A stretch of 64,000 bases of DNA from an uncultured Bacteroidota bacterium (GTDB lineage: Bacteria > Bacteroidota > Bacteroidia > NS11-12g > UBA9320). Positions 9,148-47,143 of the stretch are shown here, one piece after another; the first letter of the stretch is position 1; every line of letters begins with the position of its first letter. The stretch spans positions 164,776 through 228,775 of the forward strand of contig CAKZLB010000046.1 of NCBI GenBank assembly GCA_937124965.1, read 5' to 3'. The notes beneath the pieces were generated by a model. The model worked only from the letters and a program-made list of their open reading frames with translations. It made no database searches and was not told the DNA's origin. The position numbers were made by a program, and so were the translations under genes.

Positions 9148-12100
9148 ATGAATATAAAAAATGCCCTTTTGGCTATCTCACTTATCAGTTGCCATTTGAT
9201 AACACACGCTCAAACAGGCTTCAACACTGTAAGGACTATCAATTGGGTCGATTCGTTGCATGATGATGACAAAAAACTTTCTTCCGTTGGTTTTTTTGAA
9301 GGTTGCTTCTTCAACGAGAATAATAATCAGCTCTTTCCAATGTATTTCGAAAGAATTCCTATTTCGAACCCGAACTCAAGAGTTCGACTAACCATATTAA
9401 GTTCTGAAAAAGCACCTTTCAACAATCAAAGCGACAATATAAAACGTACTATCTCGCTAAAGCAATTTGTTACCTATACTCAAGGAAAACCCATATTAAA
9501 TATTGAGTTTTCTCCTTTATTCTTGTCAAACAATCGAACAGTCGAACGACTAAAATCTTTTTCCTACAGCGTTTACACCGAAAATCAATCCAATCAACCT
9601 TCAAAACTTAAGAAAGCAACCACGTTTAAAACAACCAGTGTTTTGAATCAAGGCGATTGGTTTAGATTTTCTATTACTAATGATGGATTGTATAAAATAA
9701 CAGGAGCGCAACTGAAAGCATCAGGTGCAAATCTATCGGGTATCGGAGCTAAAACTATTAAAGTTTTCGGATTTCAAGGTGGACCTTTACCTGAAGACAT
9801 TCCTACTGAACGTCATGATGACTTAATTGAGCTACCTGTTGAATTAGTTGATGCAAACGGAAACAATCAATTTGATGATCAAGATTTTGTTCGGTTTTAT
9901 GCAGAAGGAGCAAATACGTATAATTTCACAAACAACCGCTTTGTGCACGAACAGAATGTTTACTCAACCAAGGCGTACATATATATCACATTTGGAGGGT
10001 CTAACGCGAAACAATTATCTAATTACCCATCTGGATCTGGAAGTTCCTTCGAGAAAGATCTAGACTTCTTTTACGATTTGATTCATCGAGAAAAAGAAGA
10101 GGTGAATTTGATTCAAAGCGGACGCCATTGGTACGGTGATGAATTCAGAGTAGAAAAGACGAAAGTATTCACTCACAATTTTTCAGATGTAAAAACGAGC
10201 CTTCCTGCCATCCTATCGCATCGTTTTGTTGGTAGATCTATAAAACAAAGCGCCTCATGTGTTTTGTCGGTTAACGGACAACCTTGGCACGATATGTTCA
10301 TCTCGAGTGTTCCAGGCGACTATGACGAAACATTTGGTCAAATTCTGGCTAAAAATGATTCGTTTAATTTAACCTCAAACACGGTTTCACTTAGATACCA
10401 ATATAATATTGGAGGTGAAGGCAACGGATGGATAGATTTTTACTCTTTATCGGTTCCTGTGAAACTGCAATTGACTGGAAACCAAAAGATTGTACGGTCT
10501 TCGGAAAGTCAGAAATATAACTCTACACAGTTTTCTTTTTCTGGATCGGATTATACTATTTGGAACGTAACCGATATCTCAACAAGCGGATTGCAACAGA
10601 CTTTTACAGATGGGAATTTCAGAAGGGCGATACTTTCAAACAATAAAACTCCTCAACAATTTGTACTGTTCAAACCTGGCTCAGAAGCCATTCCTGAATT
10701 TGACAGCAAGGTTGAAAATCAAAACCTTCATCAAGTGATTGACGTAGACTTTATTATCATCTCTCATTCTTCATTTCTTGCTGAATCAGAGAGATTAGCG
10801 TCACTTCATCGAAAAGAATACAACCAGAATGTGTTGGTTGTTGATTGCAAAAAGATATATCATGAGTTCTCTGGGGGTAGACAAGACCCAGTTGCTATTA
10901 GAGAGTTCATACGTATGCATTACTCAAGAGGTTTAAACAGTGGTACTCCTCTAGAAAATGTGCTACTGATGGGTGATGGAAGTTATGATTACCTTAATCG
11001 AATTGAAGGTAACACCAATTTTATACCGACATTTCAAAGTAGAAACACTACCAACCCTGTAAATTCTTATTCTTCGGACGACTTCTATGCAATTTTAGAT
11101 GATACCGAAGGATACTACGACATTAGTTTGTCGCCCGAAGATATTGATATAGGAGTCGGTCGAATACCATGTCGAAGTGTGGAGCAAGCAAAGACAATGG
11201 TTGATAAAATAATACGATATCATGATCCTGTGACGTTTGGAGACTGGCAAAATACCCTAACCTTTTTAGGAGATGATGAAGATGGTAGCAGACACTTGGA
11301 CGACTCGGAGACTATGACAAAGTACGTAAGAGACCAAGAACCTGTTTTTAACATTAACAAAATATATCTAGATGCCTATCAACAAGAAAGCTTTGGAAGT
11401 GGTGAGAAGTATCCAGATGTAAATGTCGCAGTAACGAAAGCCTTTGAAAAAGGCACTTTAGTATTCAATTACTTAGGGCATGGCGGAACGAGTGGAATGG
11501 CTCATGAAAGGGTTGTTACTAGAGATGAAATTCGGTCTTGGAATAATTTCAATCAGCTGCCACTAATGGTTACTGCCACGTGTGAGTTGAGTCGTTTTGA
11601 TGACCCAGCACAAGACTCTCCTGGAGAACTGATGCTCTTTAATCAAAATGGAGGCGCTATTGGATTAGTAACTACAATGCGTTTGGTTCAAATTTCATTA
11701 AACACAAATCTTAGTCGTCAGATTTGGAACGACAACCTTGTTAACTTGACTAATGGTCCTAAAGATCTTGGAACTTTCTTCAGAGACACCAAAAATGCTA
11801 CACAGCGAGATGTTAATCAACGAAATTTTTCATTGCTTGCAGATCCTGCAATGGAGTTAGCGATTCCTAAATATGAAGTTATTACAACTCACATCAACGA
11901 TTCAATTATCGGGTCTCAGTTGGTTGACTCATTAAAGGCTTTCGCTCAAATAAAGTTAAAAGGTGAGGTTCGAAAACCAGATAACACGTTAGCTTCTGAC
12001 TTTAACGGTTTTGTCTATCCAACGATATTTGACAAGTTTTTGAACTATCAATCCTTGGGTAACGATGAGACAAGTTACATCCGAACATATCAACTCCAAA

Positions 12101-12960
12101 ACAGCGTTTTATATCGAGGAAAAGTCTCTGTAACTAACGGCAAATTTTCATTTCAATTTGTAGTTCCAAAAGACATTTCATACAATTTCGGAGCTGGTAA
12201 AATATCTTATTTTGCAGACAACGGAGTAATTGACGCTCACGGTTATGACACCTCGATTATAGTTGGAGGATCAATCACCGATGTTGCTGATGACCAAATT
12301 GGGCCAAATGTGGAGTTGCTTTTGGACGATGAAAGTTGGGTCTTTGGCGGTACAACAAACTCGTCTCCTTTGTTAATAGCAAAGGTGTTTGATCAAAATG
12401 GGATTAACACAGTAGGTAATGGAATAGGAAGAGACATTACGGCAATAATTGATGCTGGTACAGAAGACGAACAAATAATTGTACTGAATGACTTCTACCA
12501 GTCAAAACTGGACTCCTACCAAGAAGGAGAAATACGGTATCAAATGGAGGGGATTAGCCCAGGGAAACACACACTAAAAGTTCGAGTTTGGGATGTTTAT
12601 AATAATGCATCGGAAGATGAAACTGAATTTATAGTTGCAAGCGATGAAAACCTTGCTCTGAATCATGTTCTCAATTTCCCCAACCCGTTCACGTCAAGTA
12701 CTGTTTTTCATTTCGACCATAACAAATCTGGAATGCAGATGGATGTGCTAATTCAGGTGGTCACAACAACAGGACGAATTGTTAAAACATTTCATTACTC
12801 ATCGACAACGGCCAGTAGTCACTTCGATCACATCACTTGGGACGGTAAGGACGAATTTGGAGATCAATTAGCAAGAGGTGTTTACCTGTATAAGCTCACT
12901 GTAAAAACAGAAGATGGTGACAAAGCGGACGTTACACAGAAATTGGTTATCTTAAAATAG
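9148..12960 (+). CDS. porU: Type IX secretion system sortase PorU
   Basis: PorU is the surface C25-family cysteine protease that removes the C-terminal sorting domain of T9SS cargo and attaches it to lipopolysaccharide. The 1270-residue sequence starts with a signal peptide (MNIKNALLAISLISCHLITH). The gingipain-type catalytic pair is visible as YLGHGG (His778) and TATCELS (Cys812). The C-terminal 90 residues (NFPNPFTSSTVFHF to GVYLYKLTVKTEDG) are a FlgD-like/T9SS-type end domain, as is usual in PorU. It is followed by porV, its membrane partner, after 65 bases. The length fits flavobacterial PorU. Confidence 0.95.
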   Translation: MNIKNALLAISLISCHLITHAQTGFNTVRTINWVDSLHDDDKKLSSVGFFEGCFFNENNNQLFPMYFERIPISNPNSRVRLTILSSEKAPFNNQSDNIKRTISLKQFVTYTQGKPILNIEFSPLFLSNNRTVERLKSFSYSVYTENQSNQPSKLKKATTFKTTSVLNQGDWFRFSITNDGLYKITGAQLKASGANLSGIGAKTIKVFGFQGGPLPEDIPTERHDDLIELPVELVDANGNNQFDDQDFVRFYAEGANTYNFTNNRFVHEQNVYSTKAYIYITFGGSNAKQLSNYPSGSGSSFEKDLDFFYDLIHREKEEVNLIQSGRHWYGDEFRVEKTKVFTHNFSDVKTSLPAILSHRFVGRSIKQSASCVLSVNGQPWHDMFISSVPGDYDETFGQILAKNDSFNLTSNTVSLRYQYNIGGEGNGWIDFYSLSVPVKLQLTGNQKIVRSSESQKYNSTQFSFSGSDYTIWNVTDISTSGLQQTFTDGNFRRAILSNNKTPQQFVLFKPGSEAIPEFDSKVENQNLHQVIDVDFIIISHSSFLAESERLASLHRKEYNQNVLVVDCKKIYHEFSGGRQDPVAIREFIRMHYSRGLNSGTPLENVLLMGDGSYDYLNRIEGNTNFIPTFQSRNTTNPVNSYSSDDFYAILDDTEGYYDISLSPEDIDIGVGRIPCRSVEQAKTMVDKIIRYHDPVTFGDWQNTLTFLGDDEDGSRHLDDSETMTKYVRDQEPVFNINKIYLDAYQQESFGSGEKYPDVNVAVTKAFEKGTLVFNYLGHGGTSGMAHERVVTRDEIRSWNNFNQLPLMVTATCELSRFDDPAQDSPGELMLFNQNGGAIGLVTTMRLVQISLNTNLSRQIWNDNLVNLTNGPKDLGTFFRDTKNATQRDVNQRNFSLLADPAMELAIPKYEVITTHINDSIIGSQLVDSLKAFAQIKLKGEVRKPDNTLASDFNGFVYPTIFDKFLNYQSLGNDETSYIRTYQLQNSVLYRGKVSVTNGKFSFQFVVPKDISYNFGAGKISYFADNGVIDAHGYDTSIIVGGSITDVADDQIGPNVELLLDDESWVFGGTTNSSPLLIAKVFDQNGINTVGNGIGRDITAIIDAGTEDEQIIVLNDFYQSKLDSYQEGEIRYQMEGISPGKHTLKVRVWDVYNNASEDETEFIVASDENLALNHVLNFPNPFTSSTVFHFDHNKSGMQMDVLIQVVTTTGRIVKTFHYSSTTASSHFDHITWDGKDEFGDQLARGVYLYKLTVKTEDGDKADVTQKLVILK

Positions 12961-12980
12961 ATGGTCTCAAAATAAAAATA

Positions 12981-12988
12981 TAAATTTG
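12981..12988 (+). promoter_or_regulatory. -7-like element upstream of porV (TAAATTTG)
   Basis: TAAATTTG fits TAnnTTTG, 37 bases before the porV start, in the short gap after porU. It could allow porV to be transcribed separately from porU. No -33 element is obvious. Confidence 0.4.
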
Positions 12989-13025
12989 CCTTTAGCGTTA
13001 TAATTTAACTAAAAACGTATTTATA

Positions 13026-14270
13026 GTGAAAGTAACAAGTAAAGTAAAATCGTATATCGTAGCAAGTGCACTGCTACTATCAAGTCACCTCGTCTTTGCT
13101 CAAGGTGGTTTACAAACTGAAGAAAATTTACTAGGTCAATTAAATACCATTACTACTGCGGTACCTTTTCTAACCATTACACCTGACGCTCGTGCAGCAG
13201 GTATGGGCGATATTGGAGTGGCAACATCACCAGACGCTAATGGCGCACATTGGAATCCAGGAAAAATGGCTTTTATTGAAGATGATGCCGGGTTATCTTT
13301 AGGTGCGGCTCCATGGTTAAAGAGATTAGTTCCTGATATTTGGTTTTACTATTTGTCTGGTTACGCTAAAGTAGGTGACAAAAAACGAAGTACTGTTGCT
13401 GCTTCTTTACGATACTTCTCTCTAGGTAATATTCAATTTACGGACGAGTTTGGCAACCCACAGGGAAGTGATGAACCGAAAGAGTTTGCTTTTGATCTTT
13501 CTTATTCTCTTCAACTTTCAAAGAAATTCTCCTTAGGGATTTCAACTAGGTATATTAATAGCCGTTTGGTTAGCACAAGAGCATCTAATCAAAATGTTCA
13601 ACCAGGTCAAGCTGTTGCAGGTGATATTGGTGCGTATTATAAAGATGAAATTGAAATTTCCGATCGAGATTGGAAATTTTCTTTGGGTGCGAGTATTACA
13701 AACATGGGGTCTAAAATTACGTACACGAACGACGCAAATAGAGATTTTATCCCTGTTAACTTAAGACTTGGAACTTTTTGGGAAACAGAAATTGATGAGC
13801 ATAACAAAATTGGTTTCGGTATTGACTTTAATAAATTAATGGTACCAACTCCACAACCGATTTACCTTAAAGGTGATAGCGGAAATGATACGTTAATTGA
13901 TAATACACGTCAAATTATCGGTTGGGAAACTTCCGATGCTCCTCCGATTTCAGGTATGTTCTCTTCGTTTGGAGATGCTCCAGGAGGATTTCAAGAAGAA
14001 ATGAATGAAGTAATTACAAACATTGGAATCGAATACTGGTACGAAGAGAGTTTTGCAATTCGTGCAGGTTATTTTAATGAAGCAGAAACCAAAGGTGGAA
14101 GAAAATACCTAACTCTTGGTGCAGGTATACACTACAACGTTTTTGGGTTAGACATTTCTTATTTAATGCCATTCAAAACTCAACATCCATTACAAAACAC
14201 AATACGATTTACCTTGCTATTTGATATGGATGCATTTACGAAACAAAATAGTGCACCTGCAACAAGGTAA
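13026..14270 (+). CDS. porV: T9SS outer-membrane protein PorV (LptO)
   Basis: PorV is a 14-stranded FadL-like barrel that shuttles secreted cargo from the SprA translocon to the PorU sortase. The 414-residue protein has a signal peptide (about residues 1-25, ending VFAQG) and the family hallmark FLTITPDARAAGMGDIGVAT (about 48-67) followed by SPDANGAHWNPGKMAF. The barrel strands then continue to an aromatic C-terminal region. The start codon is GTG at 13026; no ATG fits the signal peptide. Adjacency to porU supports the call. Confidence 0.95.
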   Translation: MKVTSKVKSYIVASALLLSSHLVFAQGGLQTEENLLGQLNTITTAVPFLTITPDARAAGMGDIGVATSPDANGAHWNPGKMAFIEDDAGLSLGAAPWLKRLVPDIWFYYLSGYAKVGDKKRSTVAASLRYFSLGNIQFTDEFGNPQGSDEPKEFAFDLSYSLQLSKKFSLGISTRYINSRLVSTRASNQNVQPGQAVAGDIGAYYKDEIEISDRDWKFSLGASITNMGSKITYTNDANRDFIPVNLRLGTFWETEIDEHNKIGFGIDFNKLMVPTPQPIYLKGDSGNDTLIDNTRQIIGWETSDAPPISGMFSSFGDAPGGFQEEMNEVITNIGIEYWYEESFAIRAGYFNEAETKGGRKYLTLGAGIHYNVFGLDISYLMPFKTQHPLQNTIRFTLLFDMDAFTKQNSAPATR

Positions 14271-14290
14271 GATTTTTTTCGGTAAGACAT

Positions 14291-14322
14291 AAAAAAAGGG
14301 CTTCAACAAGAAGCCCTTTTTT
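14291..14322. terminator. Bidirectional terminator between porV and lon
   Basis: A 12-bp stem, AAAAAGGGCTTC / GAAGCCCTTTTT, with a 5-base loop AACAA, has an A-run on the left and a T-run on the right between two convergent genes. Confidence 0.9.
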
Positions 14323-14341
14323 ATTATTGATCGTTTTGCTT

Positions 14342-16813
14342 TTATGAAGTTTCTGTCTTCAGTTCCCAATCTTTAGCGTCGTTAACCTTCTCTTTTGTTA
14401 ACGCCAAATCCAATACATCCAACATATTTCGTACATAGTGGAATGTTAGGTCTTTCACGTATAGTGGTGGAATGTCTTGAATATCTTTTCGATTTGACTC
14501 AGACATCACAATTTCCTTTATTCCCGCTCTTTTAGCAGCAAGGATTTTCTCTTTAATTCCTCCCACCGGCAAAACACGACCACTAAGTGTAATTTCACCA
14601 GTCATTGCCAAATGTGATTTCACCTTCCGTTGTGTTACCATGCTGGCTATTGAGGTAAGGATTGTTATACCAGCAGACGGTCCGTCTTTTGGAACAGCTC
14701 CCGCTGGAAAATGAACGTGAAAATCATATTGGTCAAACAGGTCATAATCAATATCTAAATAGTCGCTATTGGCTTTCAAGTAAGTTAACGCAGTTATTGC
14801 TGACTCCTTCATTACGTCGCCCAACTTACCTGTTAAGGTTAACTTCCCTTTTCCTTTGGTCATAGAGCTTTCTACAAATAAAATCTCCCCTCCAACAGAA
14901 GTCCATGCCAAACCAGTAACTACACCAGCGATATCATTATTTTCGTATTGTTCTTTTTCAATTCGTTGGTTGCCTAGTATTGTCGTTACGTCGCTTGCTG
15001 TAACCTTAGCAACAACTTCTTCATTCCAAACAATCTGTTTTGCTCTAAATCTTGCCAATGAAGCAATTTTTTTCTCCAAGCCTCTAACACCGCTTTCTCT
15101 CGTATACTCGTCGACAACCTTCGCAATGATTGAATCTGACACTTTAAACTGGTTTGCTTTAAGTCCATGCTCCTTGCGTTGTTTTGGAATGAGATACTTC
15201 TTAGCTATTTCTATTTTCTCCTCCAACGTATAACCATTGATTTCAATGATTTCCATTCTATCTAATAATGCAGGCTGTATTGTGTCGAGCCTATTGGCTG
15301 TTGCTACAAACATGATTTTTGATAAATCATAGTCTAGGTCAACATAATTGTCATGGAAAGAGTTGTTTTGCTCAGGATCTAATATTTCTAATAATGCAGA
15401 AGATGGATCACCTCTAAAGTCGTTTCCAATTTTATCGATTTCATCTAAAACAAAAATTGGGTTTGACGTTTGTGCCTTTTTTAGCGATTGAATAATTCGA
15501 CCTGGCATAGCCCCAATATATGTTTTACGATGTCCTCTTAATTCAGACTCATCGTGTAAACCTCCTAACGACATGCGGACATATTTTCTTCCAACTGCTT
15601 TTGCTATCGATTTACCCAAAGATGTTTTACCTACACCAGGAGGGCCATACAAACATAAGATCGGGCTTTTCATATCGCCTTTCAGTTTTAAAACCGCTAA
15701 GTACTCAAGAATTCTGTCTTTTACTTTCTCCAAACCAAAATGATCTTGGTCTAGCGTCTTCTTTGCTCGCTTTAAGTCAAACTTATCTTTAGTGTATTCA
15801 TTCCAGGGTAATTCCAACAGTAACTCAGCATAGTTCAAACTCACAGAATAATCTGGAGCTGCTGGATTTGTGCGTTGAAGTTTATCTAATTCTTTATTAA
15901 ACGCCTTGTTTACCTCTTCATTCCACTTTTTTGTTTTCCCTTTAGCTCTAAGCTTTTCAATTTCAAGATCTGGTGACTCTTGGCCTAACTCTTCTTGAAT
16001 AGCTCGTATTTGCTGATGAAGGAAGTATTCTCTTTGCTGTTTATCTAAGTCAACCTTAACCTTAGATTGTATTTGGGTTTTAAGTTCCAGCATCTGAAGC
16101 TCTTTCGTCAGATGTTCTAAAACCTGTTCTGCTTTAGTTGGTAAACTTTTTAATTCGAGAATTACTTGCTTTTCGGCCAAACCTACATTAAGGTTGGATG
16201 CTATAAAGTTGATTAAGAAATTCGGACTGTCTATATTTTTTAAAGCAAAGTTTGCTTCAGTAGGAATATTCGGAGACAACTCAACTATTTGTGTTGCCAA
16301 CTCTTTTACTGAGCTCATCAAGGCTTTAAAGTTCTTGTCTGACCGAAACTTAGACTCTGGCTCTGCAAGTACTTTTGCTTTAAAATAAGGTTCAGAAGCT
16401 GTGAATTCGTTTATCTTAAACTTTCGTTTGCCTTGAATGATTGCGGTGGTATTCCCATCAGGCATTCGAATCATTTTAACTATATGGGCAACTGTACCAA
16501 TTTGGTGCAAATCTTCAACGCTTGGGTCTTCAATTTTGGAGTCTTTTTGTGAAACCACCCCAATTGTTTTAGTGGTTTTGTACGCATCCTTTATTAATTT
16601 AATGGATTTGTCGCGACCTAGCGTAATCGGGAAAATGACTCCAGGAAATAATACCGTATTACGAAGTGGTAAAATTGGAAGCTCTTCGGGAAATTCCTCT
16701 TTATTCATTTCGTTTTCCTCATCTTGTGTCATTAAAGTCACAAAACCTGGATTGTCGATATCATCTTCGGAATCTACTTGTATAAAATCTTTTGTGTTAT
16801 TAAACATTGTCAA
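14342..16813 (-). CDS. lon: ATP-dependent protease Lon
   Basis: Lon is a cytoplasmic AAA+ serine protease that degrades misfolded and regulatory proteins. The 823 residues contain the N-terminal substrate-binding LON domain (PILPLRNTVLFPGVIFPI from about residue 45), a coiled coil, the AAA+ module with Walker A GPPGVGKT and Walker B FVLDEIDKIG, and the C-terminal protease domain with the Ser/Lys dyad in PKDGPSAGIT and GGIKEKILAAKRAG. The architecture is complete. It is transcribed alone; no TAnnTTTG element is evident upstream. Confidence 0.97.
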   Translation of the reverse strand: MTMFNNTKDFIQVDSEDDIDNPGFVTLMTQDEENEMNKEEFPEELPILPLRNTVLFPGVIFPITLGRDKSIKLIKDAYKTTKTIGVVSQKDSKIEDPSVEDLHQIGTVAHIVKMIRMPDGNTTAIIQGKRKFKINEFTASEPYFKAKVLAEPESKFRSDKNFKALMSSVKELATQIVELSPNIPTEANFALKNIDSPNFLINFIASNLNVGLAEKQVILELKSLPTKAEQVLEHLTKELQMLELKTQIQSKVKVDLDKQQREYFLHQQIRAIQEELGQESPDLEIEKLRAKGKTKKWNEEVNKAFNKELDKLQRTNPAAPDYSVSLNYAELLLELPWNEYTKDKFDLKRAKKTLDQDHFGLEKVKDRILEYLAVLKLKGDMKSPILCLYGPPGVGKTSLGKSIAKAVGRKYVRMSLGGLHDESELRGHRKTYIGAMPGRIIQSLKKAQTSNPIFVLDEIDKIGNDFRGDPSSALLEILDPEQNNSFHDNYVDLDYDLSKIMFVATANRLDTIQPALLDRMEIIEINGYTLEEKIEIAKKYLIPKQRKEHGLKANQFKVSDSIIAKVVDEYTRESGVRGLEKKIASLARFRAKQIVWNEEVVAKVTASDVTTILGNQRIEKEQYENNDIAGVVTGLAWTSVGGEILFVESSMTKGKGKLTLTGKLGDVMKESAITALTYLKANSDYLDIDYDLFDQYDFHVHFPAGAVPKDGPSAGITILTSIASMVTQRKVKSHLAMTGEITLSGRVLPVGGIKEKILAAKRAGIKEIVMSESNRKDIQDIPPLYVKDLTFHYVRNMLDVLDLALTKEKVNDAKDWELKTETS

Positions 16814-16871
16814 TGTGTCAGATAAATAAAATACCTCTAAGGTTCAATGAATTGACAATTGTCGTGCCAGC

Positions 16872-21481: not shown

Positions 21482-22819
21482 TTATGAATAAAACATACCT
21501 GCTACTGCTGCCGTCATTAGGCATGCGAGTGTTCCTCCTAATAGTGCCCTCATACCCAAACGAGCCAGAGTTGGTCGTTGATTTGGTGCAATAGTTCCAA
21601 TTCCCCCAATTTGAATTCCAATGGATGCAAAATTTGAAAATCCACATAATGCATATGTCATAATCACCACCGTTCTATTATGATGAAAAAGATTTTTCCC
21701 ATTGAAATCACTCAATGAGATGTACGCAATAAACTCGTTAATCACCGTTTTCTCGCCTAATAATTGCCCTGCCAACAAGGTATCATTCCATGGAACTCCA
21801 ATTAACCACGCAACTGGTGAAAATAAATATCCAAGTATCATTTCGAGTTTAAAGACCTTGTATGTGCCCTCGCTAATTTCATTAACCCAGCTATTCAAAC
21901 CAGTGTATTGACCAATTACATCAGAAAGCACATAATTTATCATGGCAATAAAAGCTAGAAAAACCAGTATCATTCCTGCAACATTAACCGCTAGTTTAAT
22001 CCCTTCTGTTGTTCCATTTGATATTGCTTCAAGTGGACCTGAGCCAATTTTAGTTTTATCAATTTTTAGATCTTTTTCAACCTTTTGTGTTTCTGGTAAA
22101 AGAATTTTTGAAAAAACGATAGCAGCAGGTGCCGATAAAACCGATGCTGTCAACAAATGTTTAGCAAAAACTTGTTGAAGCTCTACACTGTCACCACCCA
22201 GCATACCTATAAACGCGGCAAAAACACCGCCTGCGATTGTAGCCATGCCACCAGTCATTAAGCAGAGAATTTCGGACTTCGTCATGTTTTTAATGTAAGG
22301 CTTTACAACCAAAGGAGCCTCAGTTTGTCCAACAAACACATTAGCTGCTGCAGCCAGGCTTTCTGCACCAGACATGCGCATTGTTTTGCTTAGCACCCAG
22401 GCAAACCCATAAACTATTTTCTGAAGTATGCCTAAATAATATAGCAATGAGGTTAACGCAGAAAAGAATACGATTGTAGGAAGCACCTTAAAAGCAAAAA
22501 CATATCCAATGGTGTGTTCAACTTTAACAAATTGACCATCAACGTTTTTTGTTGCGAATATCTCAGCCATATCCGGCCAAACACCAAAGATGAATTCTGC
22601 CCCTTTATCTGTGAACGACAATAATTTTGTAAATGATGCTGCAAAAAATTCAAAAACACGCTCAACTCCAGGGACTTTAAATATAAGAACCGCTAAAAGA
22701 AGTTGCAGCCCAACACCTGTTATTACTAAACGCCAGTTAATGGATCTTCGATTTCCTGAAAACACAAAGGCAATTGCAACCAGTGACAATAAGCCCAAAA
22801 GGCCCTTCATTATGTACAT
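21482..22819 (-). CDS. NupC-family nucleoside transporter
   Basis: A 445-residue concentrative nucleoside transporter (CNT family) that imports nucleosides with Na+ or H+. It has about ten hydrophobic segments, the SLAAAANVFVGQTEAPLVVKP motif region, GGMATIAGGVFAAFIGMLGG, and the C-terminal YALCGFSNFASIGIQIGGIG signature. The start is taken as the ATG at 22819 because a -7-like element, CACCTTTG, ends exactly 4 bases upstream; an in-frame TTG further upstream is inside that element. It is coupled to the downstream aminotransferase. Confidence 0.93.
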   Translation of the reverse strand: MYIMKGLLGLLSLVAIAFVFSGNRRSINWRLVITGVGLQLLLAVLIFKVPGVERVFEFFAASFTKLLSFTDKGAEFIFGVWPDMAEIFATKNVDGQFVKVEHTIGYVFAFKVLPTIVFFSALTSLLYYLGILQKIVYGFAWVLSKTMRMSGAESLAAAANVFVGQTEAPLVVKPYIKNMTKSEILCLMTGGMATIAGGVFAAFIGMLGGDSVELQQVFAKHLLTASVLSAPAAIVFSKILLPETQKVEKDLKIDKTKIGSGPLEAISNGTTEGIKLAVNVAGMILVFLAFIAMINYVLSDVIGQYTGLNSWVNEISEGTYKVFKLEMILGYLFSPVAWLIGVPWNDTLLAGQLLGEKTVINEFIAYISLSDFNGKNLFHHNRTVVIMTYALCGFSNFASIGIQIGGIGTIAPNQRPTLARLGMRALLGGTLACLMTAAVAGMFYS

Positions 22820-22823
22820 TGAG

Positions 22824-22831
22824 CAAAGGTG
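22824..22831 (-). promoter_or_regulatory. -7-like element for nupC (CACCTTTG), leaderless spacing
   Basis: CACCTTTG differs from TAnnTTTG only at the first base and is separated from the ATG by 4 bases (CTCA), the same spacing as at pyrE and other genes here. Confidence 0.45.
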
Positions 22832-22938
22832 CAAAAAAAGATTGATGGTTCCAATGTAATGAAAACACTTGATTCATCACTTATTGCAGAATTTATACAA
22901 ACCAATTAACGATTAATTGTTCAAGCACAACACAAATA

Positions 22939-22951
22939 GAGAATTTGTCTC
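22939..22951. promoter_or_regulatory. Upstream inverted repeat 1 (GAGA-N5-TCTC)
   Basis: GAGAATTTGTCTC is a GAGA-N5-TCTC inverted repeat ending 134 bp before the -24 GG of sigma-54 promoter 1. The first sRNA unit has otherwise diverged here from units 2 and 3, yet this element and the following 30 bp or so (TTTTGA, TCCC and TGG blocks) are kept. It is a candidate binding site for a sigma-54 enhancer-binding protein. Confidence 0.5.
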
Positions 22952-23083
22952 GTTTTGATTATTTTGTCCCTTTTTGGAACTTTTAGAGATTGCCACACGG
23001 GCTACATACTTAAAGTGAAATTTAACGTAAAACACTATTAAACAATCTATTACATCCCCCATTTACACGATTATCATTGTTTA

Positions 23084-23100
23084 TGGCACACCAATTGCAA
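23084..23100 (+). promoter_or_regulatory. Sigma-54 promoter 1 (-24/-12)
   Basis: TGGCAC-N5-TTGCAA is a full match to the RpoN consensus TGGCAC-N5-TTGCW. The invariant GG (23085-23086) and GC (23097-23098) are 10 bases apart. It predicts a transcript start near 23110, exactly where homology between the three sRNA units begins. Confidence 0.82.
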
Positions 23101-23109
23101 TTTATGTAT

Positions 23110-23310
23110 CGCTCATATGGAGTAACGAAATTTGATAAATACTATACTACATTACTTATTACTTACTACTTGAAAATTATTTAAAATTCTGTTTTTACTA
23201 TTTGTACTACTATTCCACTTCGCCCGTGAGGGTAAAGAAAAACTAACTCAAATTACTAATCCATGCTCCGAATGAGCTAGAAAGACCGCCCCAACTAGGC
23301 GGTCTTTTTT
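23110..23310 (+). ncRNA. Sigma-54-dependent tandem sRNA, copy 1
   Basis: A predicted small RNA of about 200 nt, bounded by sigma-54 promoter 1 and an intrinsic terminator. Its 5' end, GCTCATATGGAG (23111-23122), can pair with CTCCGAATGAGC (23266-23277) next to the terminator, forming a closing stem with one mismatch and one wobble. The interior is AU-rich and probably mostly unpaired; it includes TACTTATTACTTACTACTTG and a small hairpin CCC-GTGA-GGG (23223-23232) with a GNRA loop. There is no conserved ORF of useful length. It is the first of three tandem relatives and the most diverged upstream of its promoter. The target is unknown. Confidence 0.75.
23281..23310 (+). terminator. Terminator of sRNA copy 1
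   Basis: A 10-bp perfect stem, AAAGACCGCC / GGCGGTCTTT, with a 7-base loop CCAACTA, is followed by TTTTTT. Confidence 0.92.
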
Positions 23311-23460
23311 ATTGTCACAACTTTCAGTACAAAAATTAGCAGAAGAACACTCGCAAATAATTCAATACCCTACTCTTTATTTAACACCACAATATTTTCA
23401 ACCATCACTAGACTTATTTCCAAACCACATTCACTCAAATCTAAACAATAATTAAAATAC

Positions 23461-23473
23461 GAGAATAAGTCTC
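23461..23473. promoter_or_regulatory. Upstream inverted repeat 2 (GAGA-N5-TCTC)
   Basis: GAGAATAAGTCTC ends 133 bp before the -24 GG of sigma-54 promoter 2. It is the candidate enhancer-binding-protein site for unit 2. Confidence 0.5.
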
Positions 23474-23604
23474 ATTTTGAATACATATTCCCATAATGGT
23501 TCTATGTGGGGTTTTTTAATTGCTATAAAACCCGCTCGACAAAACAACCTAACAAATTATATATCAATACATTAACACACATACTAGTCAACAAACCAAC
23601 TTCC

Positions 23605-23621
23605 TGGCATATCGCTTGCAA
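23605..23621 (+). promoter_or_regulatory. Sigma-54 promoter 2 (-24/-12)
   Basis: TGGCAT-N5-TTGCAA has GG at 23606-23607 and GC at 23618-23619 with 10 bases between. It predicts a start near 23631. Confidence 0.8.
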
Positions 23622-23630
23622 TTAACATAT

Positions 23631-23826
23631 TGCTCTTAAGGAGTAACGAAATTTGATAAATACTACACTACTTATTACTTACTACTTGAAAATTATTTAA
23701 AATTCTGTTTTTACTATTTGTACTACTATTACACTTCACCCGTGAGGGTTAAGAAAAACTAACTCGAATTACTAATCAATGCTCCATATGAGCTCGAAAG
23801 ACCGCCCCAACTAGGCGGTCTTTTTT
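23631..23826 (+). ncRNA. Sigma-54-dependent tandem sRNA, copy 2
   Basis: A predicted RNA of about 196 nt, closely similar to copy 1 over its whole length. One 5-base deletion falls in the ACTAC repeat tract. The 5' GCTCTTAAGGAG (23632-23643) pairs with 3' CTCCATATGAGC (23782-23793) with two internal mismatches. That 3' element is also a perfect complement of the 5' element of copy 1, so the two RNAs could pair with each other. The CCC-GTGA-GGG hairpin (23739-23748) is kept. The terminator stem is identical to that of copy 1. Confidence 0.75.
23797..23826 (+). terminator. Terminator of sRNA copy 2
   Basis: The same stem as terminator 1, AAAGACCGCC / GGCGGTCTTT with a CCAACTA loop, is followed by TTTTTT. 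Confidence 0.92.
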
Positions 23827-23976
23827 ATTGTCACAACTTTACGTTCAAAATTTAGAAGAAGATTAGTCTCAAAAAATTCAACACCCCACACTTTATTTAA
23901 CACCACAATATTTTCAAACATCACTAGACTTATTTCCAAATCACATGCACTCAAATCTAAACAATAATTAAAATAC

Positions 23977-23989
23977 GAGAATAAGTCTC
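23977..23989. promoter_or_regulatory. Upstream inverted repeat 3 (GAGA-N5-TCTC)
   Basis: GAGAATAAGTCTC ends 133 bp before the -24 GG of sigma-54 promoter 3, the same placement as in units 1 and 2. Confidence 0.5.
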
Positions 23990-24120
23990 ATTTTGAACAC
24001 ATATTCCCATAATGGCTCTATATGGGATTTTTTAATTGCTATAAAACCCGTTCGACAAAACAACCTAACAAATTATATATCAATACATTAACACACATAC
24101 TAGTCAACAAACCAACTTCC

Positions 24121-24137
24121 TGGCACACCGCTTGCAA
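24121..24137 (+). promoter_or_regulatory. Sigma-54 promoter 3 (-24/-12)
   Basis: TGGCAC-N5-TTGCAA is a full consensus match. GG is at 24122-24123 and GC at 24134-24135 with 10 bases between. It predicts a start near 24147. Confidence 0.82.
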
Positions 24138-24146
24138 TTAACCTAT

Positions 24147-24327
24147 TGCTCTTAAGGAGTAACGAAATTTGATAAATACTATACTACACTACTTATTACT
24201 TACTACTTGAAAATTATTTGCACTACTGTTATTCTAGCCCTAAACGCTGAGTAACTACAATTAAATTACGTAACCATGCTCACGTTAAGAGCTAAAGAGG
24301 CCTCCTGAACAAGGGGGCCTTTTTTTG
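24147..24327 (+). ncRNA. Sigma-54-dependent tandem sRNA, copy 3
   Basis: A predicted RNA of about 181 nt. The first 75 or so nt match copies 1 and 2. It then lacks about 22 nt between two ATTT repeats, and its 3' half has diverged, losing the CCC-GTGA-GGG hairpin. The closing stem is kept by compensating change: 5' GCTCTTAA (24148-24155) pairs perfectly with 3' TTAAGAGC (24285-24292). The terminator also has a different sequence but the same form. The RNA ends just where the -33 element of the icmF promoter lies, so it is not a 5' leader of icmF. Confidence 0.72.
24298..24327 (+). terminator. Terminator of sRNA copy 3
   Basis: Stem AGGCCTCC / GGGGGCCT (one G-U pair) with a 7-base loop TGAACAA, followed by a T-run. 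It keeps the shape of terminators 1 and 2 with different bases. Confidence 0.9.
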
Positions 24328-24355
24328 TCATAGATTGTCGAAAAGAATATCTTTG
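24324..24355 (+). promoter_or_regulatory. Promoter of icmF (TTTG-N20-TATCTTTG)
   Basis: A -33-type TTTG (24324-24327) is followed after 20 bases by TATCTTTG (24348-24355), the best full match to the Bacteroidetes housekeeping promoter in the window. The -33 element overlaps the U-run of the sRNA 3 terminator. The 5' UTR is about 13 nt. Confidence 0.75.
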
Positions 24356-24372
24356 CCCAACTCATTATTCCT

Positions 24373-27300
24373 ATGATCGATCAGTCACCATATACTCCAA
24401 AAAATAAAGTCCGAATTGTTACAGCTGCCTCACTATTTGATGGCCACGATGCTGCGATAAACGTAATGCGCCGAATTATCCAGGCAACTGGATGTGAGGT
24501 AATTCATTTGGGACACGACCGAAGCGCTGAAGAAGTAGTAAACACAGCAATTCAAGAAGATGCCAACGCAATCGCAATGACCAGTTACCAAGGTGGACAC
24601 AATGAGTACTTTAAGTACATGCATGATCTGCTAAAAGAGAAAGGTGCTGGACACATAAAACTCTTTGGCGGCGGAGGTGGAACAATACTGCCGTCTGAAA
24701 TTGCAGATCTTCAAGAATATGGTATTACGCGTATTTATCATCCGGACGATGGCAGATCTATGGGTTTGCAAGGAATGATTAACGACTTGATAATGCAATC
24801 CGACTTCCCTACTGGGTTAAACCTAAATGGAGAAGTTGAAACCTTTAGAAAAGGCGATAAAATGTCTATTGCTAAAGTAATATCAGCCGCTGAAAATTTC
24901 CCTGAGGAAAACAAAGATCTTTTAACTTCGATTAAAAATGAAGCCAAGCAAATAAGCACACCTGTTCTAGGTATCACGGGAACTGGTGGAGCTGGAAAAA
25001 GTAGCCTGGTCGATGAATTGGTGAGACGATTCCTTACGGACTTTGAAGACAAAACGATAGCTATTATTTCAGTCGACCCAAGCAAACGTAAAACAGGAGG
25101 AGCTTTGTTGGGTGACCGAATACGAATGAACAGTATTCGTAACGACAGAGTATATATGCGCTCTCTTGCAACTCGTCAAGCTAATTTGGCTCTATCTGCT
25201 CATATTGATACTGCCAAGGATATTCTCAAGGTAGCTGGGTATGACCTAATCATTTTAGAAACTTCTGGAATTGGTCAAAGTGATACGGAAATAACCGACC
25301 ATAGTGACGTTAGTTTATACGTAATGACACCTGAATACGGTGCTGCAACTCAATTGGAAAAAATTGATATGTTAGACTTTGCGGATGTTATTGCGATAAA
25401 TAAATTTGACAAACGCGGCGCATTGGATGCATTACGTGATGTAAAAAAACAGTTCCAACGCAACCATAAGTTGTTTGATCAAGATCCAGAAACAATGCCT
25501 GTTTTCGGAACTATTGCCAGTCAATTCAACGACCCTGGCGTCAATTCTCTTTATGGGACACTTATAAAAACGATTAATGAAAAAGCAGGTTCCAGCTTTG
25601 ATACAGGATATGGTTTGGAACAAGACTTATCTGAGAAAATATACATCATTCCTCCAAAACGAGTTCGTTACTTATCTGAGATAGCTGATAATAACCGAAA
25701 TTACGATAAGTGGGCTCGGACACAATCAGCTATAGCTCAAAAGCTTTTCGGACTTCGAAAAACGATAGCAACGATAACAGAAATTGGCGCCAATGACGCT
25801 GATCGACTTATCAAAGATTTGGAAGAAACGTACTCAAAAGTTGCGTTAGATTTTGATCCAAAACTTCAAGTAGTTTTAGATGAATGGGACAGTGTAAAGG
25901 AGTCCTACGCAAATGACATTTACACTTATTTAGTTCGAAATAAGGAAATACGAGTTGAGACAAAGACAACTTCATTATCACATCAAAAAATAAGCAAAGT
26001 TTCCCTTCCGAAATTCGAGGCATGGGGTGATGTATTACAATGGAACTTGCAAGAAAATGTTCCTGGAAAATTCCCATATACCGCTGGAATTTACCCTTTT
26101 AAGCGCCAAGGAGAAGACCCAACGCGGATGTTTGCAGGAGAAGGTGGACCAGAACGTACCAACAAACGTTTTCATTACTTAAGCAGCAGTATGCCAGCAA
26201 AGCGATTAAGTACGGCATTTGACTCGGTAACTCTTTACGGAAATGACCCTGATTACCGTCCTGACATCTACGGAAAAATTGGTAATGCAGGTGTTAGCAT
26301 TTGTTGCTTGGATGATGCTAAAAAACTTTATTCTGGTTTTAACTTAGCACACCAAATGACTTCGGTTTCAATGACTATCAATGGTCCGGCACCAATGTTA
26401 TTAGGTTTTTTCATGAATGCCGCAATTGACCAACAATGTGAGTTGTACATTAAGGAAAATGGCCTTGAGGAAGAAACTAGGAAAAAAATCGATGCATACT
26501 TTGCCAATAAAGGAACAAAGCAACCTACTTATAACGGTGAACTACCAGAAGGAAATGATGGTTTAGGCCTTATGTTGCTTGGACTTACTGGCGACAAAGT
26601 GCTTCCAGAAGATGTTTATACCAAAATCAAATTTGACACTTTAAGTCAGGTTAGAGGTACTGTACAAGCAGATATATTAAAAGAAGACCAAGCACAAAAT
26701 ACTTGTATTTTTTCAACGGAGTTTGCGTTGAGATTAATGGGTGACGTGCAGGAGTATTTTATCCAAAACAAAGTTCGTAACTTTTATTCGGTTTCTATTT
26801 CAGGATACCATATTGCGGAAGCAGGAGCTAATCCAATTTCGCAACTTGCTTTTACACTAGCGAATGGGTTCACATATGTTGAGTATTATTTAAGTCGTGG
26901 AATGGACATCAATCATTTCGGTCCAAACTTATCGTTCTTTTTCTCAAATGGTATTGACCCAGAATACGCGGTAATTGGCAGAGTTGCACGAAGAATTTGG
27001 GCAAAAGCGATGAAATTAAAATATGGTGCTGATGAACGTAGTCAGATGCTAAAATACCATATTCAAACGAGTGGTAGAAGCTTGCATGCTCAAGAAATTG
27101 ACTTTAACGACATTCGCACAACGCTTCAAGCACTTTACGCCATTTACGATAATTGTAATAGTTTACATACAAATGCATACGATGAGGCAATTACTACTCC
27201 AACAGAAGAAAGTGTGAGGCGAGCGGTTGCTATCCAATTAATTATCAATAGAGAACTTGGGTTAGCTAAAAATGAAAATCCACTTCAAGGCTCATTCATC

Positions 27301-27753
27301 ATTGAAGAATTAACCGATTTAGTTGAGGAAGCAGTGTTGTTAGAATTTGATAAAATTACAGATCGTGGTGGTGTTTTAGGAGCCATGGAAACGATGTATC
27401 AACGTTCAAAAATTCAAGAAGAAAGTCTGTATTACGAAACCTTAAAACACACTGGAGAATTCCCAATTATTGGAGTTAACACTTTCTTAAGTAGCAAAGG
27501 CTCTCCGACGATACTTCCAAAAGAAGTGATCCGAGCCACCGAAGATGAAAAACAATTTCAAATTAATACATTGCAAGAACTTCACGCTAGAAATTCGGAT
27601 GAAACTGAAGCACAATTAGCTAAGGTTCAAGAAGTTGCGTTGACCAATGGTAATGTATTTGATGCGTTGATGGAAGCCTGTAAATTCTGTTCACTTGGGC
27701 AAATTACAGACGCTTTGTTTAATGTTGGCGGTCAGTATAGAAGGAATATGTAA
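24373..27753 (+). CDS. icmF: Fused isobutyryl-CoA mutase (IcmF)
   Basis: This cytoplasmic adenosylcobalamin-dependent enzyme interconverts isobutyryl-CoA and butyryl-CoA (carbon-skeleton rearrangement). The 1126 residues follow the IcmF order: B12-binding domain first ([13 protein letters not shown], with the cobalt-ligating DGHD-type His), then a MeaI-like G-protein chaperone (Walker [10 protein letters not shown], about residues 201-209; base-specificity NKFDK), then the mutase barrel. The segment [20 protein letters not shown] has Phe where methylmalonyl-CoA mutases have Tyr, which favours IcmF over MCM. Some IcmF proteins also act on other acyl-CoAs. It is transcribed alone. Confidence 0.92.
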
Positions 27754-43094: not shown

Positions 43095-45035
43095 TTACTT
43101 CAACACTTGCATCTTTTTCGTGACCTCACTGTCATTTGTTGATAAGGTATAGAAATAAACTCCTGACGTCAATGCTTGACCATCAATAGTCAATTTATGG
43201 TTTCCAGCTCCTTTAAAGCCCATGTTTTGAATAGAGACTACTTTTCCCATTGCGTCTGTAATCGTGCATGTCAAGTCACTCTCCGCTCTCAGATATATCA
43301 CAACCTCTGTTGCATCGCTAAATGGATTTGGCTGATTTTGACTAACTACAAAAACTTTAGACTCACGTATCACTGGTTTGGTTGACAGCGTATTTTGACC
43401 CAATACGCTATCCATCAAATCTTGAACAGGAATCGCTGCATACAATATTTTGTTTTCTACATTTGGGTGAAGGTTTCCTGATCCACTGTTAATTACATTC
43501 GTTCCAGGATGTTCATCCATCTGAAAGATGAAGTGCACAAAATCATCCGTACGCTTTGTCAAACAGGCATAAACCGCCTCTTGACTTCGCACTTGTGTTG
43601 CATTTTGTGAGGTCGCCCATGATGCTCCATTATCTTTTGAATACGAAATATGAACATCTCTGTAGTTTGCTAGATAATCATTAAAAGTAAACTCAACAGG
43701 TGCGTCCCACGTAACGTAGATGACATTATTCTTGTCGACTGACAAACTTGGATGGGTAGATATACTTGTTCCACCGTATCTAGCTGCGTAGGCTAATCCA
43801 TTTTGCGGGTTTCCATCTGCCCCCATGGAATTAGTCGTTTCTCCAGTGATGTCATATGGAGCTCCAGAAGTGGAAGGTTGGCCGTCCATGTCGATCGGAG
43901 AGCCACAGACTTTCCAGCTTGGCCAGTTTTCACTCCAATGATATAAATCATAAAAGCTACCTGAACTCGCTAAATCATCGGTTGTGTCGTCGTCACTATA
44001 ACTTAAGCGACCGGTTACAACATGTACATCCCCATTATTATCAATAAGAACGTCCAGTGCTCCGTCATTACTCGTATACGTTTCTGGAGCCGTTAAATGT
44101 CTTCCCCATTGAAAACGTGGGTACTGAAATGAATCAATAATACTGGTAGTCCATGTCGAACCAGAATCTGTAGATTTAATTAAAGTAACATCTCGAAAAC
44201 TACCACCTAAAACAATCGCAACAACAGAATCTCGAGTATCGATTGCATATACATCACCATCACCGTCAAAGTGGCGCGTTGAATCATAACCTGGTAAAAA
44301 TGTGAGTGGTGACCAAGTCTTCCCTCTATCATCTGACTGTGAAAACATAATTGGATTTACAATTCCATTTACCGTTACATCGCCAGTATTTTCTGGATAA
44401 AAACACGACAACGAAAACATTTTATCTCCGATATTAGCCGTTCTGTTCCAAATCAACTCTCCACTTGGGTGTTCCATAACTTTGGAATTATCTGAAACCC
44501 AATCACTTTTACCTTTTCCTGAATTCCGCGTAATAAGAAACCCGCCTGCGGCTGGATCATGCGAAACGATATACATTGAACCGTCTCCAAACATCCCTAT
44601 AGACGGCCAACCCGTTCTCAAATTAGACTCAACACGAGATGTTGGAGCACTTCCCCAATTTGTACCATCATGATAATTCACAACGGAGCCACGATCTGGC
44701 CAAGTTGTACTTGACGTTCCACTGTATGTCCAGGAAACAGAAACTGTACCGTCATCATGCAGTATTGCTCGTCGGCCTACACTTGCATTTGATTGTAAAT
44801 CATAATAGGTATTTCCAACTTCAACAAAATCATATACCTCTGATCTGTATTTTGCTTGCTTCCCTCCTACCTCATCAGTAACTCCATCTGGACTTACAAA
44901 AATTGGTTTATCCACGTGTACCGCTTTGGGGCTGAGTTGATTTGCGCTTTGAACATGAATTTTTGATGATTCATTTTGAGCAAAAAGTGTTAGTGAAGAA
45001 CTCACTAAAACACCTACTAACATTGATTTATTCAT
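43095..45035 (-). CDS. T9SS-secreted Asp-box (sialidase-like) protein, copy A
   Basis: A 646-residue secreted protein. The start is set at ATG 45035, which gives a signal peptide MNKSMLVGVLVSSSLTLFAQ; an in-frame Met at 45116 would add 27 unrelated residues. The central part carries several Asp boxes (SDDRGKTW, STDSGSTW, SKDNGASW), the mark of BNR/sialidase-type propellers, but catalytic sialidase residues cannot be confirmed. The last 80 residues (QPNPFSDATEVVIYL to KKMQVLK) are a type A T9SS sorting domain. It is a close paralogue of the next gene. Confidence 0.88.
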   Translation of the reverse strand: MNKSMLVGVLVSSSLTLFAQNESSKIHVQSANQLSPKAVHVDKPIFVSPDGVTDEVGGKQAKYRSEVYDFVEVGNTYYDLQSNASVGRRAILHDDGTVSVSWTYSGTSSTTWPDRGSVVNYHDGTNWGSAPTSRVESNLRTGWPSIGMFGDGSMYIVSHDPAAGGFLITRNSGKGKSDWVSDNSKVMEHPSGELIWNRTANIGDKMFSLSCFYPENTGDVTVNGIVNPIMFSQSDDRGKTWSPLTFLPGYDSTRHFDGDGDVYAIDTRDSVVAIVLGGSFRDVTLIKSTDSGSTWTTSIIDSFQYPRFQWGRHLTAPETYTSNDGALDVLIDNNGDVHVVTGRLSYSDDDTTDDLASSGSFYDLYHWSENWPSWKVCGSPIDMDGQPSTSGAPYDITGETTNSMGADGNPQNGLAYAARYGGTSISTHPSLSVDKNNVIYVTWDAPVEFTFNDYLANYRDVHISYSKDNGASWATSQNATQVRSQEAVYACLTKRTDDFVHFIFQMDEHPGTNVINSGSGNLHPNVENKILYAAIPVQDLMDSVLGQNTLSTKPVIRESKVFVVSQNQPNPFSDATEVVIYLRAESDLTCTITDAMGKVVSIQNMGFKGAGNHKLTIDGQALTSGVYFYTLSTNDSEVTKKMQVLK

Positions 45036-45144
45036 TTCTCTAATTCTTTGAAGCACGATAATACAAATAAACACTGACATTTTCATGACCGTAAAACATG
45101 TCTTGTGAAATTCCAAAGATGTGTAATAACTAAATGTAAACTAC

Positions 45145-45196: not shown

Positions 45197-47143
45197 TTAC
45201 TTCAACACTTGCATCTTTTTAGTAACCTCGCTGTCTTTTGTAGACAAGGTATAAAAGTAAACTCCTGAAGTCAATGCTTGACCATCTATCGTTACTTTAT
45301 GATTTCCAGCTCCTTTAAAGCCCATATTTTGAACAGAAACAACTTTACCCATTGCGTCTGTCACTGTACATGTTAAATCACTTCCAGCTCTTAAATAAAT
45401 AACAACGTCTGTTGCTTCGCTAAATGGGTTTGGTTGGTTTTGACTAACCACAAAAACTTTAGCTTCCTTAGCAACTGGTTGTACATTCAATGTGTTTTGT
45501 CCTAAAACGCTGTCCATTAAATCTTGAACAGGAATCGCTGCGTACATAATCGAGTTCTCTACATTTGGATGCAAGTTACCAGAACCACTGTTTTGCAAGT
45601 TAGTTCCTGGGTGCTCGTCCATTTGGAAAATAAAGTGAACAAAATCATCTGTTCGTTTTGTCAAACAAGCAAACACTGCCTCTTGGCTTCTTACTTGAGT
45701 TGCGTTTTGAGTAGTTGCCCAAGTTGCCCCACCATCAGTAGAATAAGAAATATGTACATCACGGTAGTTTGCTAAGTAATCATTGAAGGTAAATTCAACT
45801 GGTGCATCCCAAGTAACAAAGATGTTGTTGTCTTTATCAACAGAAAGACTTGAATGTGTAGAAATACTTGTTCCTCCGTATCGTGCCGCATATGCTAAAC
45901 CGTTAGCTGGGTTACCATCTGTCCCCATGCTATTTGTGGTCTCAGCGGTAATATCATAAGCAGCTCCAGACGTGGCAGGTTGACCATCCATATCGATTGG
46001 CAAACCACAAACTCTCCAAGTTGGATTGTTTTCGCTCCAATGGTATAAACCAAAGAAACTTCCTGATCTCGCTAAATCATCTGTCGTGTCATCGTCCCAG
46101 TAGCTAACTCGTCCACCAGCAACATGAATAGTACCGTTGTTGTCGATTAAAACATCTACAGATCCGTCATTTGAAGTTACTTGATCCGCTTGTTGTACAA
46201 GGTAACGTCCAAACTCAAATCTTGGGAACGCAAACGAATCTATTATTGAAGTTGTCCAAGTTGAACCTGAATCAGTTGATTTAAATAAGGTTACGTCTTT
46301 ATACCTACCAGCAATTACAATTGCAACGATAGAGTCTCTTGTATCGATTGCATACGTATCTCCTCCACCATCAATGTATCTAGATGAATCGTATCCTGGA
46401 AGCAAGCTTGGTGTTGACCAAGTTTTCCCACCGTCTTCCGACATTGCATACAATGTTGGGTTTAGAATACCATCAACGTCTACATCTTCGTCATCAGCTT
46501 GAGCAGAAAAGTTTACTAATGTAAACATCTTGTTACCAAGGTTAGCTGTTCTGTTCCATATCAAATTCCCACCTGGGTGAGTTACAACTTTTCCCGCTTG
46601 AGAAGTCCAATCTGTTGATCCTTTTCCTGAGTTCCTTGTAATTTTTAGACCACCATCTGCGGCATCATGTGCAACTGTATAAATTGAACCATCTGGCAAC
46701 ATCCCTATTGAAGGCCAGCCAGTTCTCAAATCTTCAGTTCTTGCTGTAGGAGCACTTCCCCAGCTAGTTCCATCATAATAGTTCACCGCACTTCCTCGAT
46801 CTGGCCAAGTTGTACTTGAAGTACTACTGTAAGTCCATGCAACTGTGATTGTACCGTCATCGTGTAAAATCGCACGATTTCCAATTGATGCGTTCGTTTG
46901 AAGATCGTAATACGTGTTACCCACTTTTACGAAATCGTATACTTCTGATCGATACTTACTGTGACTTGATGATGCAGTGTTTGCTTCTTGAGCTGCCGCA
47001 TCTGGTCGCATCGCCTCTATTGCATTGAATTGACTCTTGTGAATCAATTGACTTGAACTAGCCTCATGCAGTTCATTACTTGTTTGACCGTTCACCACCA
47101 GTACAGTAGATAAAATGGCCGTTAAAAGTATTCCTCTTTTCAT
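45197..47143 (-). CDS. T9SS-secreted Asp-box (sialidase-like) protein, copy B
   Basis: A 648-residue tandem paralogue of copy A, very similar from about residue 65 to the end. The signal peptide is MKRGILLTAILSTVLVVNGQ. Asp boxes include SEDGGKTW, STDSGSTW and STDGGATW, and the C-terminus is the same type A sorting domain. The N-terminal 60 residues after the signal differ. It has its own promoter and terminator, so the two copies are separately transcribed and may be expressed under different conditions. Substrate or ligand is unknown. Confidence 0.88.
   Translation of the reverse strand: MKRGILLTAILSTVLVVNGQTSNELHEASSSQLIHKSQFNAIEAMRPDAAAQEANTASSSHSKYRSEVYDFVKVGNTYYDLQTNASIGNRAILHDDGTITVAWTYSSTSSTTWPDRGSAVNYYDGTSWGSAPTARTEDLRTGWPSIGMLPDGSIYTVAHDAADGGLKITRNSGKGSTDWTSQAGKVVTHPGGNLIWNRTANLGNKMFTLVNFSAQADDEDVDVDGILNPTLYAMSEDGGKTWSTPSLLPGYDSSRYIDGGGDTYAIDTRDSIVAIVIAGRYKDVTLFKSTDSGSTWTTSIIDSFAFPRFEFGRYLVQQADQVTSNDGSVDVLIDNNGTIHVAGGRVSYWDDDTTDDLARSGSFFGLYHWSENNPTWRVCGLPIDMDGQPATSGAAYDITAETTNSMGTDGNPANGLAYAARYGGTSISTHSSLSVDKDNNIFVTWDAPVEFTFNDYLANYRDVHISYSTDGGATWATTQNATQVRSQEAVFACLTKRTDDFVHFIFQMDEHPGTNLQNSGSGNLHPNVENSIMYAAIPVQDLMDSVLGQNTLNVQPVAKEAKVFVVSQNQPNPFSEATDVVIYLRAGSDLTCTVTDAMGKVVSVQNMGFKGAGNHKVTIDGQALTSGVYFYTLSTKDSEVTKKMQVLK

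Follow-up and report, generated by a model that had tools for sequence, protein, structure and literature searches.

Promoters of the sigma-54 type require an activator, and in Pseudomonas the sigma-54/CbrB-linked CrcZ and CrcY are two decoy RNAs in which short CA-rich motifs recur and which sequester the Hfq/Crc protein complex. The multi-copy sigma-54 RNAs of Vibrio are the Qrr small RNAs (sRNAs), for which QrrX serves as a sponge in Vibrio cholerae, being activated by a LysR-type protein, acting with Hfq and pairing with the base-pairing domain of its target sRNAs (PMC9732341). Caulobacter crescentus employs CrfA as a dedicated sponge that competes with mRNA targets, including that of a TonB-dependent receptor, for the conserved sRNAs SisA-D (PMC12559287). 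Within the phylum Bacteroidota, the FopS family of Bacteroides thetaiotaomicron comprises 14 sRNA copies that bind RbpB and act directly on susC-type mRNAs, their promoters being of the housekeeping sigmaABfr type (PMC11697453). A search of the open-access literature for Bacteroidota found neither a sigma-54 sRNA or RNA sponge nor post-transcriptional control of gliding or of type IX secretion system (T9SS) cargo, and neither small RNAs nor gliding genes came up in a term search of a cross-phylum survey of sigma-54 regulons (PMC12316311).

The locus discussed here belongs to an uncultured Bacteroidota bacterium (GCA_937124965.1, contig CAKZLB010000046.1), whose genome is termed the home genome (G000), and lies in a window of 64,000 nt, the whole stretch of DNA that was analysed. 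Judged from its sequence, and with a probability of roughly 0.6, the locus would carry three copies of an activator-controlled sigma-54 sponge, or target-mimic, RNA that frees mRNAs from a partner RNA. The three non-coding units are arranged in tandem in the gap between a Na+-dependent nucleoside transporter gene of the nupC type, divergent from the array (21482..22834, minus strand), and a gene for an icmF-type fused acyl-CoA mutase (24373..27753, plus strand). Their spacing of 521 and 516 bp is the head-to-tail period given in a first-pass annotation of this DNA. Each unit consists of a conserved tandem upstream site, a promoter that matches exactly, roughly 180-200 nt of G-poor body sequence and an intrinsic terminator, all on the plus strand. 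The predicted sRNAs span 23110..23310 for unit 1, with the start placed by its spacing from the -12 element, 23631..23826 for unit 2 and 24147..24326 for unit 3, the 3' half of which is shorter and diverged. The terminators (23283-23310, 23799-23826 and 24297-24326) are GC-rich hairpins followed by T-runs, in line with the intrinsic terminators of that annotation. Unit 1, with a further hairpin at 23223-23232, folds 6.3 SD better than shuffled sequences, and the unit bodies, rich in ACUAC and ACUUAC, are left open by the predicted folding.

The promoters had been described as of the TGGCA[C/T]-N5-TTGCAA type, and TGGCAY-N5-TTGCA indeed recurs exactly in all three units with the GG-N10-GC arrangement of a -24/-12 element (TGGCACACCAATTGCA at 23084..23099, TGGCATATCGCTTGCA at 23605..23620 and TGGCACACCGCTTGCA at 24121..24136, plus strand). 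These are the only exact matches in the 64-kb window. Across the 4.09-Mb genome there are five, against 0 for the reversed control, and the two that lie outside the array comprise one before a gldL-like gene and another that looks like chance. Approximately 100-137 bp before the -24 element lies a pair of activator-type sites, 19 bp separating GTCTCNTTTTGA from a TTCCCATNNTGG-like site; the pair is present in every unit and in the units of relatives. In unit 1 the pair occupies 22947..22980, with GTCTCGTTTTGA followed at 19 bp by GTCCCTTTTTGGAAC, and the equivalent pairs are found at 23469..23499 and 23985..24015, likewise on the plus strand. Homology among the copies does begin at the predicted starts, as first claimed, but it also reaches upstream to these paired sites, which would fit an NtrC-type activator. 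The home genome encodes RpoN with all three domains as well as six full activator ATPases.

The ORF list of the window contains no frame of at least 50 aa across the units, and the copies differ by indels of 5 and 14 nt, by which a conserved reading frame or peptide is excluded. The units of relatives likewise carry frame-breaking indels, and a conserved ORF, which the first-pass annotation had named as counting against it, does not emerge among these homologues; a coding reading was thus discarded. An Rfam search assigned the units to no family at gathering score, nor did the permissive list hold a convincing match, and the Qrr model was absent even from that list. Taken together, the promoters, paired upstream sites, terminators, genus-wide synteny and lack of coding capacity make it very probable that the units are sRNA genes of the sigma-54 type, in agreement with the tandem array first proposed. 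The likeness to FopS extends to multi-copy sRNAs in the same phylum with surface-protein mRNAs as targets, whereas the -24/-12 promoters of the array units set them apart from the housekeeping type of that family (PMC11697453).

Units were found in all four further genomes of the genus that were searched (five with the home genome), in the same nupC/icmF gap and always retaining TGGCAC-N5-TTG. G001, G002 and G004 hold two units each and G003 has two on separate contigs that appear to adjoin, giving a copy number of three in the home genome and two in the others. The covariance model suggested at the outset recovered every same-genus unit along with single units before icmF in G009 and G007, which represent other genera of the same family; a third such genus (G005) has a sigma-54-type RNA gene before icmF with little sequence similarity to the units. 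Applied under stricter filters to 108 genomes of the order, the model gave matches confined to the home family. A BLAST-type match in G010 (L008) was dismissed when inspection showed no unit there. What is kept across units is the promoter, the upstream sites, the open G-poor ACUAC/ACUUAC body and the terminator, while the remainder drifts. The low-complexity repeats of 5-7 nt and their indels suggest slippage, and could be taken for the product of a non-functional repeat expansion; since diverged units, also from different genera, have kept promoter, upstream sites and terminators although their spacers changed, this is the least probable of the readings considered.

Synteny with icmF across the family, together with a distance of only 47 bp from the end of unit 3 to the icmF start codon, would also suit units that act in cis as leaders or attenuators of icmF. 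Such a role is highly improbable because a promoter of housekeeping type, TTTG-N20-TATCTTTG, follows the last terminator (24324..24355, plus strand); we take it to be the likely icmF promoter by its resemblance to the consensus, and its -7 element is kept in relatives. Against a cis role stand further the strong terminator in every unit, the position of units 1 and 2 away from icmF, and the absence of any unit at 80 icmF loci of the wider Bacteroidota.

A second RNA gene in the home genome, that of the partner RNA, was traced from two non-coding 10-mer matches in G001 and G009 that lie on the opposite strand of the gene. It is located on contig C16 at about 218,125-218,238 (L183, 2295-2408), and the RNA also corresponds to the reverse complement of L313 and L344. 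Its roughly 110 nt are predicted to fold into a 5' stem and a terminator hairpin separated by an open middle. It was observed in three genomes; of 114 nt compared, 109 agree between the home copy and that of G001, and 104 between the home copy and that of G009, from another genus. The gene is preceded at the right distance by TGGCAY-N5-TCG and by upstream sites similar to those of the array, its -12 element (TCGC/TCGA) differing from the TTGC of the units. Comparison of the partner RNA with Rfam returned no family, and a search of viral contigs for its pattern returned none. Less than 1 kb from its gene, a response-regulator gene carries a sigma-54-like site and an upstream site (G000:C16:217330-217442, minus strand; L183, L073).

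The array core is complementary to GGUUAAUAAUUUUCAUCAUAAGUAGUAGUUUAGUAUUUUAUC, the open middle of the partner RNA, with the order of the blocks kept and an unpaired insert in the middle. The complementary blocks fall at 23134-23161, 23170-23181 and 23251-23268 in unit 1, at 23655-23677, 23686-23697 and 23767-23784 in unit 2, and at 24171-24198, 24207-24218 and 24264-24281 in unit 3 (plus strand). Local alignment of the window units with the reverse complement of the partner scored 43; of 2000 shuffles, none reached this value for two of the units and one did for the other. Fourteen array-type RNAs share with the partner 136 complementary 8-mers versus 2 on the same strand, counts that are not independent given the relatedness of these RNAs. 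Extended complementarity over the pairing region of another sRNA, as is typical of a sponge, is therefore present in the genus; it is weak in G009 and G007, where it is short, repeated and not colinear and the alignment is not significant. In G001, G002 and G004, the TGAAAATTATT block is missing from the a units; these contain ATTATTAACCA, whose complement lies elsewhere in the partner.

Complementarity alone is silent on which of the two RNAs is the sponge, and Qrr RNAs are themselves multi-copy and sigma-54 driven. The array might then silence mRNAs directly through ACUACUU seeds with the partner RNA as its sponge, a possibility that we consider quite unlikely: among four genomes no antisense target of the array core at translation starts is conserved, same-sense matches are, and the partner RNA is the more conserved of the two. 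Same-sense copies of the core occur in mRNA leaders; one example is ACTACTTATTACTTACTACTTGATGAAATGG, located in G001 where a T9SS adhesin gene starts, and G002 and the home genome have diverged forms of it. In a 0.86-Mb sample, about one-fifth of the home genome with simple ORF calls, five of the eight tandem ACUAC motifs outside the array are situated at sense translation starts against an expected fraction of 3.9% (binomial 5e-6; Fisher 0.009 versus a complemented control motif, 4/31), values that apply to a motif defined after the first examples had been seen. This same-sense placement, which a sponge would mimic, thus differs from the control motif at p ~0.01. Of the five genes concerned, two encode type A T9SS proteins, one of which contains an SdrD-like domain. 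The products of the others are a PKD protein of 1613 aa bearing a T9SS signal of type B, a PAS histidine kinase and a small protein whose start resembles a signal peptide. A related 10-mer in G009 lies at translation starts in 4/18 cases versus 3/50 in two RNA-free genomes (Fisher 0.07, borderline), and single ACTACTT motifs show no enrichment in leaders.

When 420 leaders were ranked by predicted binding to the partner RNA, that of the adhesin came first, with the PKD protein in third place and the kinase in sixth; simple alignment of the partner with 432 leaders gave no better result than controls. Units 2 and 3 are predicted to bind the partner at about the strength of the top-ranked leader (-20 kcal/mol); for unit 1 cofolding gains only -11.5 kcal/mol owing to its self-folding, and duplex energy by itself is weak evidence where AT-rich sequence inflates the scores. 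As separate observations, the promoter region of the T9SS adhesin gene carries TTCCCATTTGTGGAA, and directly before this gene lies an activator gene without an obvious C-terminal helix-turn-helix (L029, L285, ~11,000-14,900). The window itself contains two paralogous genes in tandem (43095-45116 and 45197-47143, minus strand) for large secreted proteins whose C-terminal ends are T9SS-like.

The same leader motifs bear on the main rival explanation, that of a protein decoy in the manner of CrcZ/CrcY, whereby the ACUAC repeats would titrate an RNA-binding protein that otherwise occupies ACUAC leaders. It accounts for the same-sense motif at translation starts and for the persistence of motif repeats in an open, G-poor body where other sequence is unalignable, but leaves unexplained both the two blocks, TGAAAAUUAUU and ATTAACCATG, that lie beyond the ACUAC repeats and the in-order match of the blocks to the partner RNA, and is accordingly judged unlikely, if less so than the other alternatives. 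The Pseudomonas decoys also differ in that theirs is a CA-rich motif and a protein target, whereas here the motif is ACUAC and an RNA partner is indicated. The sponge reading draws its direction from three features, namely leaders in the sense of the array, a partner that is more conserved, and an array that varies in copy and repeat number. The analogy to Qrr drawn in the first-pass annotation consequently needs to be reversed: with the sense of the mRNA leaders and complementarity to a conserved partner, the array resembles the sponge QrrX and not the regulator Qrr.

The promoter and upstream sites of the array recur elsewhere in the genome. A short gldL paralogue (TIGR03513), followed by a gldM-like frame (G000:C36:167266; L042, L278), is accompanied in seven genomes (G000-G003, G009, G007 and G011) by a TTCCCATAATGGGAA-like palindrome and a -24/-12 site, and the home genome has a separate, longer gldL elsewhere. 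The site pair and promoter spacing of the array also precede a multi-copy secreted-protein gene, with at least four such promoter copies at contig ends (G000:C22:5712, C39:201, C67:235209 and C76:250; L089-L092); where readable, the promoter precedes a secreted protein starting MKRKLFAVAALGVAFAFNTNAQ. Another secreted-protein gene (L061) has a similar arrangement. These shared sites and promoters place the array in a predicted sigma-54 regulon that includes a gene of the T9SS/gliding motor type. Sigma-54-like sites of the form TGGCAC-N5-TTG were also noted 40-60 bp before lon and dnaK (window 16853-16869, minus strand; L179), there without paired upstream sites, and possibly represent a different sigma-54 branch for chaperones and proteases.

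From these features we infer transcription, sigma-54 dependence, RNA-RNA binding and the direction of regulation, and a sponge mechanism may be outlined. An enhancer-binding protein on the paired TCCCATTTTGA-type sites, presumably reading TTCCCATNATGGGAA, would fire sigma-54 polymerase, and each unit would be transcribed up to its own terminator into an RNA of about 180-200 nt. The body of this RNA, open and rich in ACUAC, would pair with the open middle of the partner RNA, presumably through GAUAAAUACUA, ACUAC and UGAAAAUUAUU. The partner RNA probably blocks translation of mRNAs with ACUACUACUU at their start codons, which encode a sensor kinase and surface proteins exported by the T9SS; with this motif copied in triplicate genes, the array would titrate the partner and release those mRNAs, with the gldL paralogue switched on concurrently from a like promoter and upstream site. 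The full circuit, in which one activator drives the GldL-type motor gene, the conserved sRNA and the sponge array and so times translation of T9SS surface proteins, is a tentative extension of the sponge reading for which we would put the odds at slightly under even.

Such an array has parallels with both described sponges. As with QrrX and Qrr, a sponge would pair with the base-pairing domain of an sRNA in a sigma-54 circuit that includes multi-copy RNAs; here, in contrast to Vibrio, it would be the sponge that forms the multi-copy array, promoters of the sigma-54 type and a common upstream site are found on both sides, and the sequences are unrelated (PMC9732341). The resemblance to CrfA would lie in a dedicated sponge competing with mRNA targets for a conserved sRNA, although CrfA is one sponge against four sRNAs and the present genomes, so far as seen, would pit several sponges against one. 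Sigma-54 control and tandem copies are features of this locus that the CrfA system, as described, does not include (PMC12559287).

An RNA control circuit of this kind appears, from the open-access literature, to be without description in this phylum. If the sponge reading is true, no earlier RNA sponge array would to our knowledge precede this one in the phylum, and the sponge and its sRNA would have an enhancer site in common. The partner RNA, near-identical across genera, outside Rfam and equipped with its own promoter-like element and terminator, merits study in its own right. With predicted transcription starts, a partner RNA, target leaders and a co-regulated motor gene at hand, the locus makes the switching of a surface-protein programme in these bacteria directly testable.
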